DNA of 64,000 bases from Collinsella sp. TF06-26 (GTDB taxonomy: Bacteria > Actinomycetota > Coriobacteriia > Coriobacteriales > Coriobacteriaceae). Positions within the stretch are counted from its first letter, which is position 1. Each line of letters starts with the position of its first letter. Both the position numbers and the translations under genes were made by a program. This document shows, in pieces, positions 28,233 to 60,346 of the stretch. The notes below the pieces were generated by a model. That model was given only the letters and a program-made list of their open reading frames with translations. It had not been told where the DNA came from and searched no databases. Location of the stretch: the NCBI RefSeq assembly GCF_002232035.1, contig NZ_NKXR01000009.1, positions 267-64,266 of the forward strand, read 5' to 3'.

Positions 28233-29549
28233 TTAGCCGTGGGCGATCTTGTTTCTCAGCAAGAAGTCGACCGCCCCTACGATTCTGATGCCGTCGATGT
28301 CTGTTGGATGCTCACCATCCCTGACGATCAGGATCTTCTCGTACGAATCAGGGATTTTTCCCAGCGTGTTTAGTTTGAGCGGTCGCAGCTCGCGCTCTCT
28401 GGTCGCCTCGGCATCGATCCGTTCGGTAACCTGGATATATTTACGGTCCGATCCCTCGCCGATTGCGACAAAGTCGATTTCCCCCGCGCGCAGATGGCCG
28501 CAAAACACTTCGTATCCTTCAAAGACAAGCTGGTTGTAGATAACGTTCTCGAGCATCCTTCCGCTATCGCTGCCTCTATATCCGTCAAGATAGCTGCGGA
28601 TTCCCGTATCGGCTATGTAATATTTACCGCCTGTCTTGAGAAGCTCCCGCCCCTTGACGTCATACCTTTTTACCTTGGTAAACAGGTACGTCTCTTCCAG
28701 AGCGTCAATATACGCCGACACCGTCAGTGCGTTGGTCTTACCGCCCGATGATTCGTTGAGCGTCCCTACGATTTTGTTGACCGAGGTTTGATTGGAGATG
28801 TTGTCTGCCAGATACGCACAGAGCCGCTCGAGAACGTCGCGCTTGGTGATAGCTCCGCGACCTCTACGCGTCGCGCGCAATAGGATATCGCGCGCGACAA
28901 TCGTCTGATAGAGGCTGCGGATGTAGTCGCGGCACGGTTCGCGTCTCGGCTCGTCATGAGCCAGAAACGGCATGCCGCCATAGGTTATGTACTGCTCGAG
29001 CACGGTGTTTGAATTAAGGCGATCGCCCGTCTTGGAAACGAGCTCGGCCCTCTCGCCGAGCCCTTCGGCGACGACCGCATCAATCGAGCGAAAATCAAGA
29101 TACTCGCCAAACGTGAGCGGCTGCATCTTGACCTCGATATACCGGCCCGAGATAAGCGTTGCAAGCTCGCTCGATAGCAAAAAGGCATTGGAGCCCGTGA
29201 CATAGATATCGCACGGCAAATCAATTCGAAGCGAGTTAACCGCCTTTTCCCAGCCCTCGACATTCTGGAGCTCGTCAAAGAATAGATAGGGGCGATCGAC
29301 ACCGTCAACGCGCTCCCGAACCATGCGATAAAACGTCAGGTAATCTGTAATCCCCGCATACTCTAGAGATTCCATCTTAAAGGTCAGCAAACGCTCGGCC
29401 GGCACCCCCTGTTGCGCCAGGTGCTCCCTCATCATGTCCAATAACGTGGATTTGCCGCAACGGCGTATACCCGTCACGATTTTGATGAGGTCGGTATCCT
29501 GAAAAGCAATGAGTCGATCGAGATAGCGGCTTCGGCGAACGATGTTCAT
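28233..29549 (-). CDS. ATPase of the AAA_14/DUF4143 family
   Basis: A 438-residue P-loop ATPase of a family common in gut bacteria whose role is unknown. Walker A is GIRRCGKST and Walker B is YLFFDELQN, followed by the sensor-like VTGSNAFLLSSELATLISGRY. The C-terminal DUF4143 part is nuclease-like (GYRGSDSGRMLENVIYNQLVFEGYEVFCG, then IDFVAIGEGSDRKYIQVTERI). The gene is headed by two palindromes at 29583-29615 and 29624-29654 and followed by a palindromic repeat. A second family member is at 50396 and a remnant at 59330. Confidence 0.85.
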   Translation of the reverse strand: MNIVRRSRYLDRLIAFQDTDLIKIVTGIRRCGKSTLLDMMREHLAQQGVPAERLLTFKMESLEYAGITDYLTFYRMVRERVDGVDRPYLFFDELQNVEGWEKAVNSLRIDLPCDIYVTGSNAFLLSSELATLISGRYIEVKMQPLTFGEYLDFRSIDAVVAEGLGERAELVSKTGDRLNSNTVLEQYITYGGMPFLAHDEPRREPCRDYIRSLYQTIVARDILLRATRRGRGAITKRDVLERLCAYLADNISNQTSVNKIVGTLNESSGGKTNALTVSAYIDALEETYLFTKVKRYDVKGRELLKTGGKYYIADTGIRSYLDGYRGSDSGRMLENVIYNQLVFEGYEVFCGHLRAGEIDFVAIGEGSDRKYIQVTERIDAEATRERELRPLKLNTLGKIPDSYEKILIVRDGEHPTDIDGIRIVGAVDFLLRNKIAHG

Positions 29550-29582: not shown

Positions 29583-29615
29583 CTTATAAACTTGCATTAT
29601 TTGCAAGTTTATAAG
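29583..29615. promoter_or_regulatory. TGCA-centred palindrome 1 ahead of the DUF4143 ATPase
   Basis: An inverted repeat with arm CTTATAAACTTGCA and its complement around a short centre. It is 33 bp long and lies about 35 bp upstream of the ATPase start. A sister palindrome follows 41 bp away. Confidence 0.65.
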
Positions 29616-29623
29616 ATGCCACC

Positions 29624-29654
29624 TTAGAAACTTGCAGATTTTGCATGTTTCTAA
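29624..29654. promoter_or_regulatory. TGCA-centred palindrome 2 ahead of the DUF4143 ATPase
   Basis: Arms TTAGAAACTTGCA and TGCATGTTTCTAA with a 5-nt centre. It has the same plan as palindrome 1 (outer A+T arms, inner AAACTTGCA) but different outer bases that still pair, which suggests selection for symmetry. The MerR gene ends next to it at 29693. Confidence 0.65.
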
Positions 29655-29668
29655 GAAATGGACGTGGC

Positions 29669-50271: not shown

Positions 50272-50335
50272 GAGCGTGGATTTTCTCCCACTTTGAGCAT
50301 TCAAGTGCGCTCTAGACGGGAGAAAATCCACGCTC
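50272..50335. repeat. GAGCGTGGATTTTCTCCC inverted repeat, left copy
   Basis: Perfect 18-bp arms (50272-50289 and 50318-50335) around a 28-nt centre that starts ACTTTGAG. A related copy lies at 51941-52036 on the other side of the second DUF4143 ATPase gene. Confidence 0.88.
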
Positions 50336-50354
50336 ATTATCTCGGATAGCGGAT

Positions 50355-50381
50355 GCGACAAAGGCACTATCCCTTTGTCGC
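50355..50381. repeat. ACAAAGG palindrome after the second DUF4143 ATPase
   Basis: Arms GCGACAAAGG and CCTTTGTCGC with one internal mismatch in the full palindrome. A further GGGACAGTCCC-like palindrome fills the space up to the ATPase stop codon at 50396. Confidence 0.8.
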
Positions 50382-50395
50382 GTCGGGGACTGTCC

Positions 50396-51757
50396 CTAGA
50401 CCGGCTTGACCTCCAGCTTTATCCCCTCGGCACAGGAGTCACCCAAAACATCCGAAAGGGCCCAGGTCGCATATAGCGGCAAATAAAGAACAGCTCCGCT
50501 GCGTTCAACGTTGCCTCTCGAGAAAACAATCCCGAGCCTTACACCATATTCGGCCGTATCAAGCACATGGCCGAGCGCGGCGTGCGCGTGGTAATAGGAA
50601 CCCGATTTAACCTCGATCGGAACAGCTGTTCCATCCGGTCCGTCGACCACAAAGTCCACTTCGCCGCGCTTCTTTGTCTGATAGTAGTAAAGCTGGCGAT
50701 TTTGGGCAGCCAGCTGCTGGGCCACCACGTTTTCGTAAATACCGCCCAGATTGGGTTCCTTGCTATCAAGATACGCCGCCTGGGCGACGCCAACGGGGTA
50801 GCGCGCCATCAACATGCCCGTATCCGATTGGTATAGCTTGAACTGCGATGGCCGTGCCGTCTTGAGCAGGGGCGACTTTGGCTCGGTTACGATATCCGCC
50901 TTGAGAGCAACGCCGGCATCGACAAGCCAGACAAAATCTCGCTGGTACTTGTCGTAATGCGCCTTGGGGTCAATGGAATTGAGCACGAAGCGTTTGTTTT
51001 CGCCCTCGAGCATAATAGGGAGCTGATCGTAAATGCTCTGCACCTGAAGGGCTCGCCCGCTTGCATACTTGGAGATATCCCGCCGGTACTGTTCGTTGAG
51101 CTCTGACTGTAGCTGACGAACAGAGGCAAGGTCGCCCCGCGTGTCAAGGAAACGCTGCACGACCTCTGGCATTCCACCGACAACGGTATAGGTCCTGAAG
51201 TTTGCCATCATCGCGTCGTGAATGTAATCAGGAATGGGCTTCTCGCTGATACACGCGTCGCGTATCGTTTGGCGAGCTCCCTCGCTCACCCCGATCGCCC
51301 AGCAAAACTCCTCAAAATCGAGCGGGAACATCCTAAGCTCGTGAACATATCCCACGGGATAGGACCTAACGCCCTTGAACTGGGTCCCGAGCATTGACCC
51401 CGAAAACGCCCAGCGGCACCTCCCGTCCTCAACAAGGAACTTTGCCATCGTCATGATGTCGGGGGCCTCTTGGACCTCATCGATAAACACGAGCGTTTTG
51501 CCCGGTGCTATCGGCTTTCCCGAGAGAAGCGTCACCCTGCTGATGAAATCGTCGGCATCCCGTGCCTCGAGAAGAGCATCTTTTGCCTGGCGATTTTCCG
51601 CGAGATTGAGCTCGATATAGGTTGCGTAGTTTGACTTACCGAACTCGCGAATCGAGTAGCTCTTACCGATTTGGCGAGAACCCGTGACGAACAACGCCTT
51701 TCGTTCAATGGATCTCTGCCAACAATCAAGCTCATCAGCGATTTTCCTGCGCAACAT
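50396..51757 (-). CDS. ATPase of the AAA/DUF4143 family, second copy
   Basis: A 453-residue P-loop protein with Walker A TGSRQIGKSYSIREF and Walker B TLVFIDEVQEAPDIM. Then come AFSGSMLGTQFKGVRSYPVGYVHELRMFPLDFEEF and a C-terminal DUF4143/nuclease-like part with the EVDFVVDGPDGTAVPIEVKSGSYY motif (Asp...Glu-X-Lys). ATG 51757 has GGGAG 5 nt upstream; the frame is open to 51886 but that part is made of 33-bp repeats. Similarity to the gene at 28233 is only at domain level. The gene is flanked by inverted repeats, which suggests that it can move as a unit. Confidence 0.86.
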   Translation of the reverse strand: MLRRKIADELDCWQRSIERKALFVTGSRQIGKSYSIREFGKSNYATYIELNLAENRQAKDALLEARDADDFISRVTLLSGKPIAPGKTLVFIDEVQEAPDIMTMAKFLVEDGRCRWAFSGSMLGTQFKGVRSYPVGYVHELRMFPLDFEEFCWAIGVSEGARQTIRDACISEKPIPDYIHDAMMANFRTYTVVGGMPEVVQRFLDTRGDLASVRQLQSELNEQYRRDISKYASGRALQVQSIYDQLPIMLEGENKRFVLNSIDPKAHYDKYQRDFVWLVDAGVALKADIVTEPKSPLLKTARPSQFKLYQSDTGMLMARYPVGVAQAAYLDSKEPNLGGIYENVVAQQLAAQNRQLYYYQTKKRGEVDFVVDGPDGTAVPIEVKSGSYYHAHAALGHVLDTAEYGVRLGIVFSRGNVERSGAVLYLPLYATWALSDVLGDSCAEGIKLEVKPV

Positions 51758-51780
51758 AAGCTCTCCCATCGCCTCGATAA

Positions 51781-51879
51781 ATGAAATGCAGATATTTATA
51801 TCGACTATTATCGATGAAATGCAGAGATTTTTAGTACCGAAATTTGATGAAATGCAGAAATTTGAGCTTACTCGCGCAT
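51781..51879. repeat. Three 33-bp direct repeats ahead of the second DUF4143 ATPase
   Basis: ATGAAATGCAGA recurs at 51781, 51814 and 51847, exactly 33 bp apart, about three helical turns. The parts after the core differ between units, though each begins with an A+T-rich stretch. The repeats end 24 bp from the ATPase start, an operator-like position. Because 33 is a multiple of three, the open frame upstream encodes a repeated CIS peptide, but the ribosome site favours a start after the repeats. Confidence 0.8.
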
Positions 51880-51940
51880 AGAACAACGACGCGTGCGCCT
51901 AAGCATGGGCATAAGTGAGGTCGGGATTCTCGCATACAAA

Positions 51941-52036
51941 TCGAGCGAGGACTATCTCCCACTTTGAGTGCGAAATTGCGCCCAAAACGGGAGATAATCC
52001 ACGCTCGATATTTCGACGGGAGAAAATCCACGCTCA
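51941..52036. repeat. GAGCGTGGATTTTCTCCC inverted repeat, right copy plus extra arm
   Basis: An imperfect copy (arms about 51942-51960 and 51989-52007, two mismatches) with the same ACTTTGAG centre, followed by one more arm GGGAGAAAATCCACGCTC at 52018-52035. The last arm ends 2 bp from the stop codon of the next gene. Confidence 0.82.
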
Positions 52037-52037
52037 T

Positions 52038-53359: not shown

Positions 53360-53511
53360 AAAACTATGCCTATTTACTACGTTTAACCGCCCACCTCCAA
53401 CCACAACAAATTTCGCTCCGACAAAACCGCAGGTAGATAGCTTGCGCTTTTTCAGAAACAGCTGTTGTGGTCGGGGATGCCGGATTCATCGTAGTAATTA
53501 GGCATAGTTTT
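53360..53511. mobile_element. MITE-like 152-bp palindromic element
   Basis: 22-bp terminal inverted repeats (53360-53381 and 53490-53511, one mismatch, AAAACTATGCC ends) bound a segment with a second, inner inverted repeat (CCACAACA with TGTTGTGG). It has no reading frame. It lies in a gene-free stretch of about 550 bp that also holds a truncated structured repeat. Non-autonomous transposition by a transposase elsewhere is the simplest explanation. Confidence 0.65.
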
Positions 53512-57979: not shown

Positions 57980-58087
57980 GGAGGGTGCCCCGGGGTCGGC
58001 GGGGTAATTCCTCCGTGCTCAAACATTCTCGCTGCACTGCGAAACTGCGCGCGGAGGAAATACCCCGCCGACCCCGGGGCACCCTCC
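57980..58087. repeat. Very long G+C-rich inverted repeat
   Basis: 36-bp arms (57980-58015 and 58052-58087) with one mismatch enclose a 36-nt centre. It begins 15 bp after the exporter stop codon. As DNA it could form a cruciform; as RNA it would be an exceptionally stable hairpin. It has no T-run, and a separate ordinary terminator follows at 58131. Confidence 0.85.
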
Positions 58088-59329: not shown

Positions 59330-59563
59330 CTACCATGATGGACCGAGAGCCTCAAACTTGATGCAGCCTATGGGGCGCAGCTTTGGGAGCGATTCCACCG
59401 CGTAGAGGGGCAAGTCGATGATTGCACCGTCCCGAGATGGCTTACCCGCCGAAAAACGAATGGCCAAATCATAACCAAATCGCTTAATACTCGCCGCCAG
59501 GCTCTTCGCCTTAAGGTTGGTCCCCGACTTCACCTCGACGGGAACCGCACGCGCCCCTGTGGG
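59330..59563 (-). pseudogene. C-terminal remnant of a third DUF4143 ATPase
   Basis: The minus-strand frame encodes GARAVPVEVKSGTNLKAKSLAASIKRFGYDLAIRFS and ends with IIDLPLYAVESLP, the C-terminal end typical of DUF4143 ATPases (compare VPIEVKSGSYY in the gene at 50396). The Walker motifs and most of the protein are missing. Directly upstream are two 33-bp-spaced repeats, as ahead of the intact family member, so the middle of the gene appears to be deleted. Confidence 0.75.
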
Positions 59564-59567
59564 TTTT

Positions 59568-59619
59568 GGCAGTTTTCATAGGGAAAAGGTAAGAAAACAT
59601 GGCAGTTTTCATAGGGAAA
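59568..59619. repeat. Two 33-bp-spaced direct repeats ahead of the ATPase remnant
   Basis: GGCAGTTTTCATAGGGAAA occurs at 59568-59586 and again at 59601-59619, a period of exactly 33 bp. The period is the same as at 51781-51879 although the sequence is different. Confidence 0.8.
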
Positions 59620-59739: not shown

Positions 59740-59775
59740 TTATCGTAAGTTCCCGTACATCGATTGGAGCCTTAC

Positions 59776-60039
59776 ATGCCCGCCATTAAACCTGTTTCCG
59801 ATTTGCGCAATTACAACGAGGTGCTCTCCGATGTCCACGAGGGCTCCCCGGTGTTCCTGACCAAAAACGGGCACGGTTGCTACGCGGTGCTCGACATGAA
59901 AGATTACGACCGGTTTTGCGCCATCAGCACGCTGATGTCGGAGCTTGAGCGCGGGCGCAGCTCGGGTGATGAGAGCGGATGGGTCTCGTCGGACAACGTC
60001 GCCGCACACTTCCGCCGCAAGGCCGCAAACCATGCATAG
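59776..60039 (+). CDS. Phd/YefM-type antitoxin
   Basis: An 87-residue antitoxin. The N-terminal DNA-binding half is IKPVSDLRNYNEVLSDVHEGSPVFLTKNGHGCYAVLDMKDYDR, characteristic of the Phd/YefM family, and the C-terminal half is the toxin-binding tail. GGAG precedes ATG 59776. The 3' end overlaps the toxin gene by 8 bp. Confidence 0.88.
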   Translation: MPAIKPVSDLRNYNEVLSDVHEGSPVFLTKNGHGCYAVLDMKDYDRFCAISTLMSELERGRSSGDESGWVSSDNVAAHFRRKAANHA

Positions 60040-60346
60040 CTGCGAGGTCGTCTACTCTCCGCTGGCTCTGCAAGATCTCGACGACATCTGGGACTACATT
60101 GCCGTCGAAAAGGACAATCCCGCAGCAGCTGATAGGATCGTAGGGGGCATTCTCGCTCGGATAGACCTGCTCTCCAGCTTCCCCGAGTCTGGTACACCAC
60201 TCTCCTCGATCTATCCCCTACGCTCCGATTACCGGTTCGTGGTCTGTGACAACCATCTCGCGTTTTACCGTTTTCACCAGAAGGTCTATATCGACCGCGT
60301 CCTCCACAGAAAGCGCGATTACCTGCAGGTGCTACTTGCCGAATAA
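60032..60346 (+). CDS. ParE/RelE-superfamily toxin
   Basis: A 104-residue toxin with the fold pattern VVYSPLALQDLDDIWDYIAVEKDNPAAADRIVGGILARIDLLSSFPESG and the C-terminal strands YRFVVCDNHLAFYRFHQKVYIDRVLHRKRDY. The C-terminal Arg/His/Tyr set is compatible with RelE-like ribosome-dependent cleavage, while the overall sequence looks closer to ParE, so the target is undecided. It is translationally coupled to the antitoxin. Confidence 0.86.
   Translation: MHSCEVVYSPLALQDLDDIWDYIAVEKDNPAAADRIVGGILARIDLLSSFPESGTPLSSIYPLRSDYRFVVCDNHLAFYRFHQKVYIDRVLHRKRDYLQVLLAE

Follow-up and report, generated by a model that had tools for sequence, protein, structure and literature searches.

Private, evenly spaced repeats precede AAA_14/DUF4143 ATPase-nuclease genes, move with them and may serve as their own operators

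The window analysed here, 64,000 nucleotides of a contig of Collinsella sp. TF06-26, contains two genes of the AAA_14/DUF4143 ATPase family and the remnant of a third (Table 1). The second ATPase, which is the main subject of this analysis, matches PF13173 (84.7 bits, cut-off 27) and PF13635 (94.4 bits, cut-off 28.1) within one protein and the PADLOC system PDC-S01 with an E-value of 1.2e-189; the PDC-S01 models are also matched by the other three family members tested. Its closest relative, from Collinsella sp. WCA1-178-WT-3, is 96% identical. Immediately 5' of the gene lie three copies of the core ATGAAATGCAGATATTT, 94–100% identical to one another, and the exact 33-bp spacing read there in an earlier note on this DNA is confirmed. 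Aligned with itself, this leader scores 20, compared with 12 for the best of 500 shuffles. The two cores, unrelated in sequence to these but also 33 bp apart, that the same note had placed before the remnant were likewise found; the remnant itself is 29% identical to a genomic paralogue (pairwise E 2e-7). The two palindromes described before the first ATPase are present, with a score reached by none of 500 shuffles, at a spacing of 40 bp and not the 41 bp claimed. The leaders of the first ATPase, the second ATPase and the remnant are three differing sets of sequences. Adjoining the remnant, at 59764–60346, is a gene pair judged by eye to be a Phd/YefM-like antitoxin and a ParE/RelE-like toxin. 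Long intergenic inverted repeats are found at 57980–58087 and 53360–53511 (in the order listed, 42 nt, 93% and 49 nt, 80%).

Table 1 Positions of the genes, repeats and protein features in the window
Feature	Position	Strand	Remark
Array of the second ATPase, three 17-nt cores ATGAAATGCAGATATTT	51781–51797, 51814–51830, 51847–51863	(-)	Period exactly 33 bp
Second ATPase, AAA_14 + DUF4143 ATPase-nuclease gene, 453 aa	50396–51757	(-)	PF13173 + PF13635
Walker A region, residues 26–33	51659–51682	(-)	G26, G31, K32 invariant in 52 homologues
Predicted winged helix in DUF4143, residues 232–310	50828–51064	(-)	Helix-helix-helix-strand-strand order, AlphaFold
Turn and start of putative recognition helix, residues 259–271	50945–50983	(-)	Covaries with repeats
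PD-(D/E)XK motif ExD...ExK, residues 366–384	50606–50662	(-)	E366, D368, E382, K384 invariant in 52 homologues
Inserted unit (array, ATPase and flanking hairpin repeats), missing from empty sites	50338–52014		23 Collinsella genomes
Left copy of 23-bp direct repeat ATGAGCGTGGATTTTCTCCCGTC flanking the unit	52015–52037	(-)	
Right copy of 23-bp direct repeat ATGAGCGTGGATTTTCTCCCGTC	50315–50337	(-)	
First ATPase, AAA_14/DUF4143, palindromic-leader class	28233–29549	(-)	PDC-S01 match
Private leader of first ATPase, two 33-nt palindromes	29583–29615, 29623–29655	(-)	40 bp apart
Third DUF4143 ATPase, C-terminal remnant	59330–59533	(-)	Similarity to genomic paralogue
Private leader of remnant, two identical 20-nt copies at 59567 and 59600	59567–59619	(-)	33-bp period

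Spaced leader repeats are general in the AAA_14/DUF4143 family. The source genome (2.26 Mb, 41 contigs) has 11 DUF4143 genes, most of them with their own differing spaced repeats directly before the open reading frame. The period is 33 bp at loci L002, L007 and L008, 34 bp at L006 and L009 and 23 bp at L001, L003 and L004, and the leader of L011 has palindromes. Further leaders were sampled within the genus and the phylum, at 80 loci of wider bacterial origin (Bacteroidales, Clostridia, Akkermansia, Spirochaetia, Bifidobacterium and others) and among the paralogues of 65 genomes; the cross-phylum sets carry a sampling bias, since they were picked by similarity to the 33-bp subfamily. A self-alignment score of at least 12 is reached by 66.5% of the first 158 distinct leaders, compared with 6.5% of 325 control leaders from other reading frames at the same loci and 1.6% of Markov shuffles, and a fresh set of 53 leaders gave spaced repeats in 88.7%. 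Over all 284 distinct leaders, 76.8% score at least 12 and 87.7% at least 10. Thus, the fixed-period repeats that the earlier note suggested looking for upstream of many such genes are carried by the majority. In ~12% of leaders no direct array exceeds a score of 10, and some of these have inverted repeats instead. Periods among the 284 leaders are sharply quantised, with 32, 33 and 34 bp at 52, 118 and 15 loci and 22, 23 and 46 bp at 4, 16 and 7 loci. Plasmid copies from Glaesserella, Vibrio, Acinetobacter and Fusobacterium have arrays too, as does a faecal contig recorded as phage.

Chance, low complexity and coding were weighed as sources of these repeats. The shuffles, the controls and the recurrence across phyla rule out chance, and in-frame coding repeats are ruled out by periods of 22, 23, 32 and 34 bp, which are not multiples of 3. 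The near-identical 23-bp-class units at L001 and L017 (99.7% at the protein level) have four and five repeat copies, respectively, indicating that arrays expand or contract.

The repeats are private to their genes. Allowing up to two mismatches, ATGAAATGCAGATATTT has only three matches in the 2.26-Mb genome, all in the window array, and the paralogues have different repeats, so that the earlier suggestion of a private leader for each member holds. The repeats also vary with the protein, as proposed there, and neither outcome that the note had named as refuting was seen. Below 50% protein identity, the repeats of two loci are no more alike than by chance; their similarity then increases to 8.6, 12.0 and 21.8 with rising identity. 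Among related loci (55–85% protein identity) the repeat cores are conserved (75% identical) while the spacers drift (42%). Of the 140 arrays of the 32–34-bp class, 105 are built on a weak core common to the family, TTGGAAAAA(T/C)G(T/G)nnAAAT, and the sites are therefore variations on a theme rather than unrelated sequences. Paralogue pairs of 50–60% identity within one genome have similar repeats in 1 of 17 cases, compared with 39% across genomes. The excess of within-genome divergence is absent at 60–70% identity and, the numbers being small, is only a hint of a possible incompatibility rule.

Both catalytic centres of the window ATPase are conserved, although activity is only predicted: in addition to the Walker A and nuclease residues of Table 1, D93 and E94 of Walker B are invariant in the 52 homologues. 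The full-length AlphaFold model (pLDDT 90, pTM 0.90) has the predicted winged helix flanked by the AAA core and the nuclease fold; modelled as an isolated fragment, the winged helix is poor (pLDDT 67). Foldseek matches of the model include Orc/Cdc6, the MuB filament, Avs3 and NRC-type STAND ATPases, and one paralogue has a weak match to PF01637. The covariation of repeats and protein was explored with kinship handled by a 75% identity filter alone. At 47 non-redundant loci, residues 259–271 came top among 397 windows for the core positions of the repeat, with a score of 3.62 (mean 0.95, SD 0.60). With the held-out loci included, giving 76 non-redundant loci, the same residues still ranked first for repeat position 11 at 4.1 SD, and positions 12 and 13 covaried with residues 313–342, likewise within DUF4143. 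At residue 267, Arg goes with T at 30 of the 76 loci and Lys with G at 13, with exceptions, a provisional rule that had appeared clean-cut in the first set; in the held-out set Arg accompanies T in 12 of 14 loci and there is a single Lys. The earlier note had left open whether the protein or a partner binds the repeats. The covariation at the predicted winged helix favours the ATPase itself as the putative reader of its array, and a partner less so.

The position of the arrays relative to the promoter bears on what they may do. In the 32–34-bp class, 108 leaders have TTGNAW within the array. For 18 of these, the distance from the last TTGNAW to a −10 box downstream is exactly 17 bp, compared with 0–4 at each other spacing from 10 to 29 bp. 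This unique peak identifies the last repeat as the −35 box in a subset of leaders. In others the arrays are slightly upstream or downstream of the promoter, and in some the last repeat falls between promoter and ATG, where repression and activation are not distinguishable. The −35/−10 geometry fits an operator and agrees poorly with an RNA element or a transposon end. Of the functions raised in the earlier note, control is therefore favoured by this geometry, clearly so in part of the leaders.

From these observations we think it probable that each ATPase-nuclease uses its own winged helix to bind the operator array before its gene and controls the promoter that drives that gene. The unit would consist of a private array of two to seven evenly spaced sites in or around the promoter, followed by the ATPase with its winged helix and PD-(D/E)XK nuclease. 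The winged helix, forming the first part of DUF4143, would recognise the array, and ATP-dependent oligomers may occupy the sites cooperatively at 32–34 bp or, in a second subfamily, at 22–23 bp. As the gene-proximal site overlaps the promoter, binding there would most likely repress transcription rather than activate it. Tight control is to be expected since both catalytic centres are conserved, and repression may keep down the level of an ATPase-nuclease that could do harm, which would stay parked at its own address until some trigger is received. Site and reader would diverge and move jointly because they are linked.

The array and ATPase move between sites as one unit. The window site is empty in 11 of 23 Collinsella genomes and filled in 12, the source genome among them; in the empty sites a position near 52016 is joined directly to one near 50336, leaving one copy of the 23-bp repeat. 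The units of two other loci are missing at their sites in ~22 of 23 genomes (L200) and 18 of 23 (L161), and near-identical ATPases, with up to 98–99% amino acid identity, occur in differing surroundings. Homology between units stops near the outer edge of the array and 0–30 nt past the stop codon, and the boundaries contain a single open reading frame. Direct repeats flank 21 of 150 units, compared with 6 of 204 controls, of which 2 are the same ATPase loci. Their length varies from 18 to more than 100 bp with junctions that are not base-precise, and a target duplication of constant length was not found at these 21 of 150 loci. Downstream of the ATPase, 44 of 47 loci lack array copies; the one-gene unit encodes no DDE, tyrosine or serine recombinase. 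The transposition mentioned in the earlier note is thus upheld as far as mobility goes; against it, repeats are present at one end only and the unit encodes no recombinase.

At two loci (L103, 4307–4360, and L126, 5440–5490) the ATPase stop codon is followed directly by another, partial copy of the array, which lies inside a direct repeat of 71 or 111 bp. Hairpin repeats GAGCGTGGATTTTCTCCC and ATGTGACAAAGGGACTGTCCCTTTGTCACAT are found at 50272–50335 and 51935–52035, and likewise at L070, L171 and L212; they recur between Collinsella genes, lie on both sides of several ATPase units and may be common recombination sites for them. ATPase units often adjoin other, different ATPase units (L070, L093, L199, L212, L213 and L260), as if at common insertion hot spots. 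We rejected the flanking direct repeats as long target duplications, many of those in Collinsella being common hairpins that accompanied or attracted the insert. Apparent within-genome copies were also discounted as transposition events: L368 and L369 are identical through their flanks and are likely assembly duplicates, and L364 and L365, bounded by runs of N, were left out.

The mobility of the unit allows another reading: a one-gene mobile element whose functional end, or targeting site, would be the array and whose ATPase-nuclease, assembled there, would excise or copy the unit, with promoter control secondary. The end of homology near the array, the empty sites at three loci, the excess of flanking direct repeats over controls and the MuB filament among the Foldseek matches would all agree with this, but an array at one end, the lack of a recombinase and the variable, imprecise junctions do not. 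Moreover, since the flanking repeats in Collinsella are largely common hairpins, recombination between them is a sufficient mechanism of movement for which the array is not needed, and on balance we regard this reading as rather unlikely. It is much more doubtful still that the repeats are iterons of a replication origin with the ATPase as initiator. Directly repeated sites beside the gene of a likely binder, the matches to Orc/Cdc6 initiators and the plasmid location of some relatives would suit an origin. The units, however, are chromosomal with empty sites, a single genome has 11 such genes, and the only domains found are AAA_14 and DUF4143, with a nuclease motif in place of a Rep-family domain; the iteron or replication reading of the earlier note thus gained no positive support.

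The remaining alternatives separate the array from the protein. Binding by a host or other regulator would account for the placement of arrays at promoters, and a general factor might recognise the weak core TTGGAAAAA(T/C)G(T/G) that recurs throughout the family; yet a repeat that differs for each gene within one genome, that in the window is unique in its genome and that tracks protein identity and covaries with the winged helix of the ATPase makes such a factor improbable. A function in the 5' leader RNA is in keeping with those loci whose last copy falls after the promoter and before the ATG. Elsewhere, though, the last copy holds the −35 box and the earlier copies are upstream of it, so that transcription from that promoter misses most of them; together with the fixed, DNA-like periods and the absence of an Rfam match, this leaves an RNA element with very little to recommend it.

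Self-binding by the ATPase, the reading we prefer, has parallels in several known systems. In the plasmid iteron/Rep systems, evenly spaced direct repeats lie beside the gene of the putative binder, and occupancy of the promoter gives autorepression. The AAA_14 units share the spaced direct repeats beside the gene of the presumed binder and probably the promoter occupancy, but have AAA_14 and a nuclease instead of Rep, are chromosomal and belong to other period classes. Toxin–antitoxin and restriction control proteins bind an operator in their own promoter that is linked to them and diverges with them. The AAA_14 arrangement is alike in its linked, co-diverging putative operator and differs in having one gene rather than two, with the ATPase as likely reader, and sites in long arrays at 23 or 32–34 bp. 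In Tn7-like elements, ATPase and nuclease subunits assemble on the element ends. Compared with Tn7 and Mu ends (TnsC, MuB), an AAA+ ATPase, a nuclease, several sites at one end and a mobile unit are held in common, whereas the AAA_14 unit has no transposase, a one-ended array and no fixed target duplication. The STAND and archaeal ATPases (Avs, ATPase_2/PF01637) are similar at the level of the fold to this ATPase, as are ORC-type ATPases; AAA_14/DUF4143 proteins, however, have no sensor repeats and have a private cis array. By the tests applied, the unit is outside the iteron, toxin–antitoxin and transposon families, and by analogy it would work like a self-binding operator array.

PDC-S01, whose ATPase and PD-(D/E)XK layout the window ATPase shares, is a single-gene PADLOC phage-defence candidate (PMC12988326, PMC13356809). 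In the available passages of the first of these papers it ranks fourth among the most common defence candidates in prokaryotes, with ~39,000 copies, its domain is given as ‘PD-(D/E)-X-K’ and it is described as experimentally unvalidated (PMC12988326). The label of candidate defence system comes from genomic context and not from an assay, and the passages on PDC-S01 available from the two papers report no antiviral activity and make no mention of upstream arrays, self-recognition or mobility of the unit (PMC12988326, PMC13356809). Any role of the window ATPase in defence would accordingly be putative. In open-licence full text, no report of leader repeats of AAA_14/DUF4143 genes was found, and the name DUF4143 was found in a single mention.

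We tentatively propose that the AAA_14/DUF4143 unit (PDC-S01) could be a minimal self-recognising element of one gene and its cis array, kept orthogonal to its paralogues by co-divergence in an incompatibility-like rule, and that its abundance could owe as much to selfish spread as to phage defence, or more. A family-wide cis array that tracks the protein, apparently unreported, gives a first handle on the binding and control of PDC-S01. It also offers thousands of natural protein/site pairs from which the recognition code may be worked out. Assays in which a PDC-S01 gene is cloned without its leader, or under a foreign promoter, may lose regulation, and the mobility of the unit raises the question of whether PDC-S01 is abundant through defence or through its own spread.
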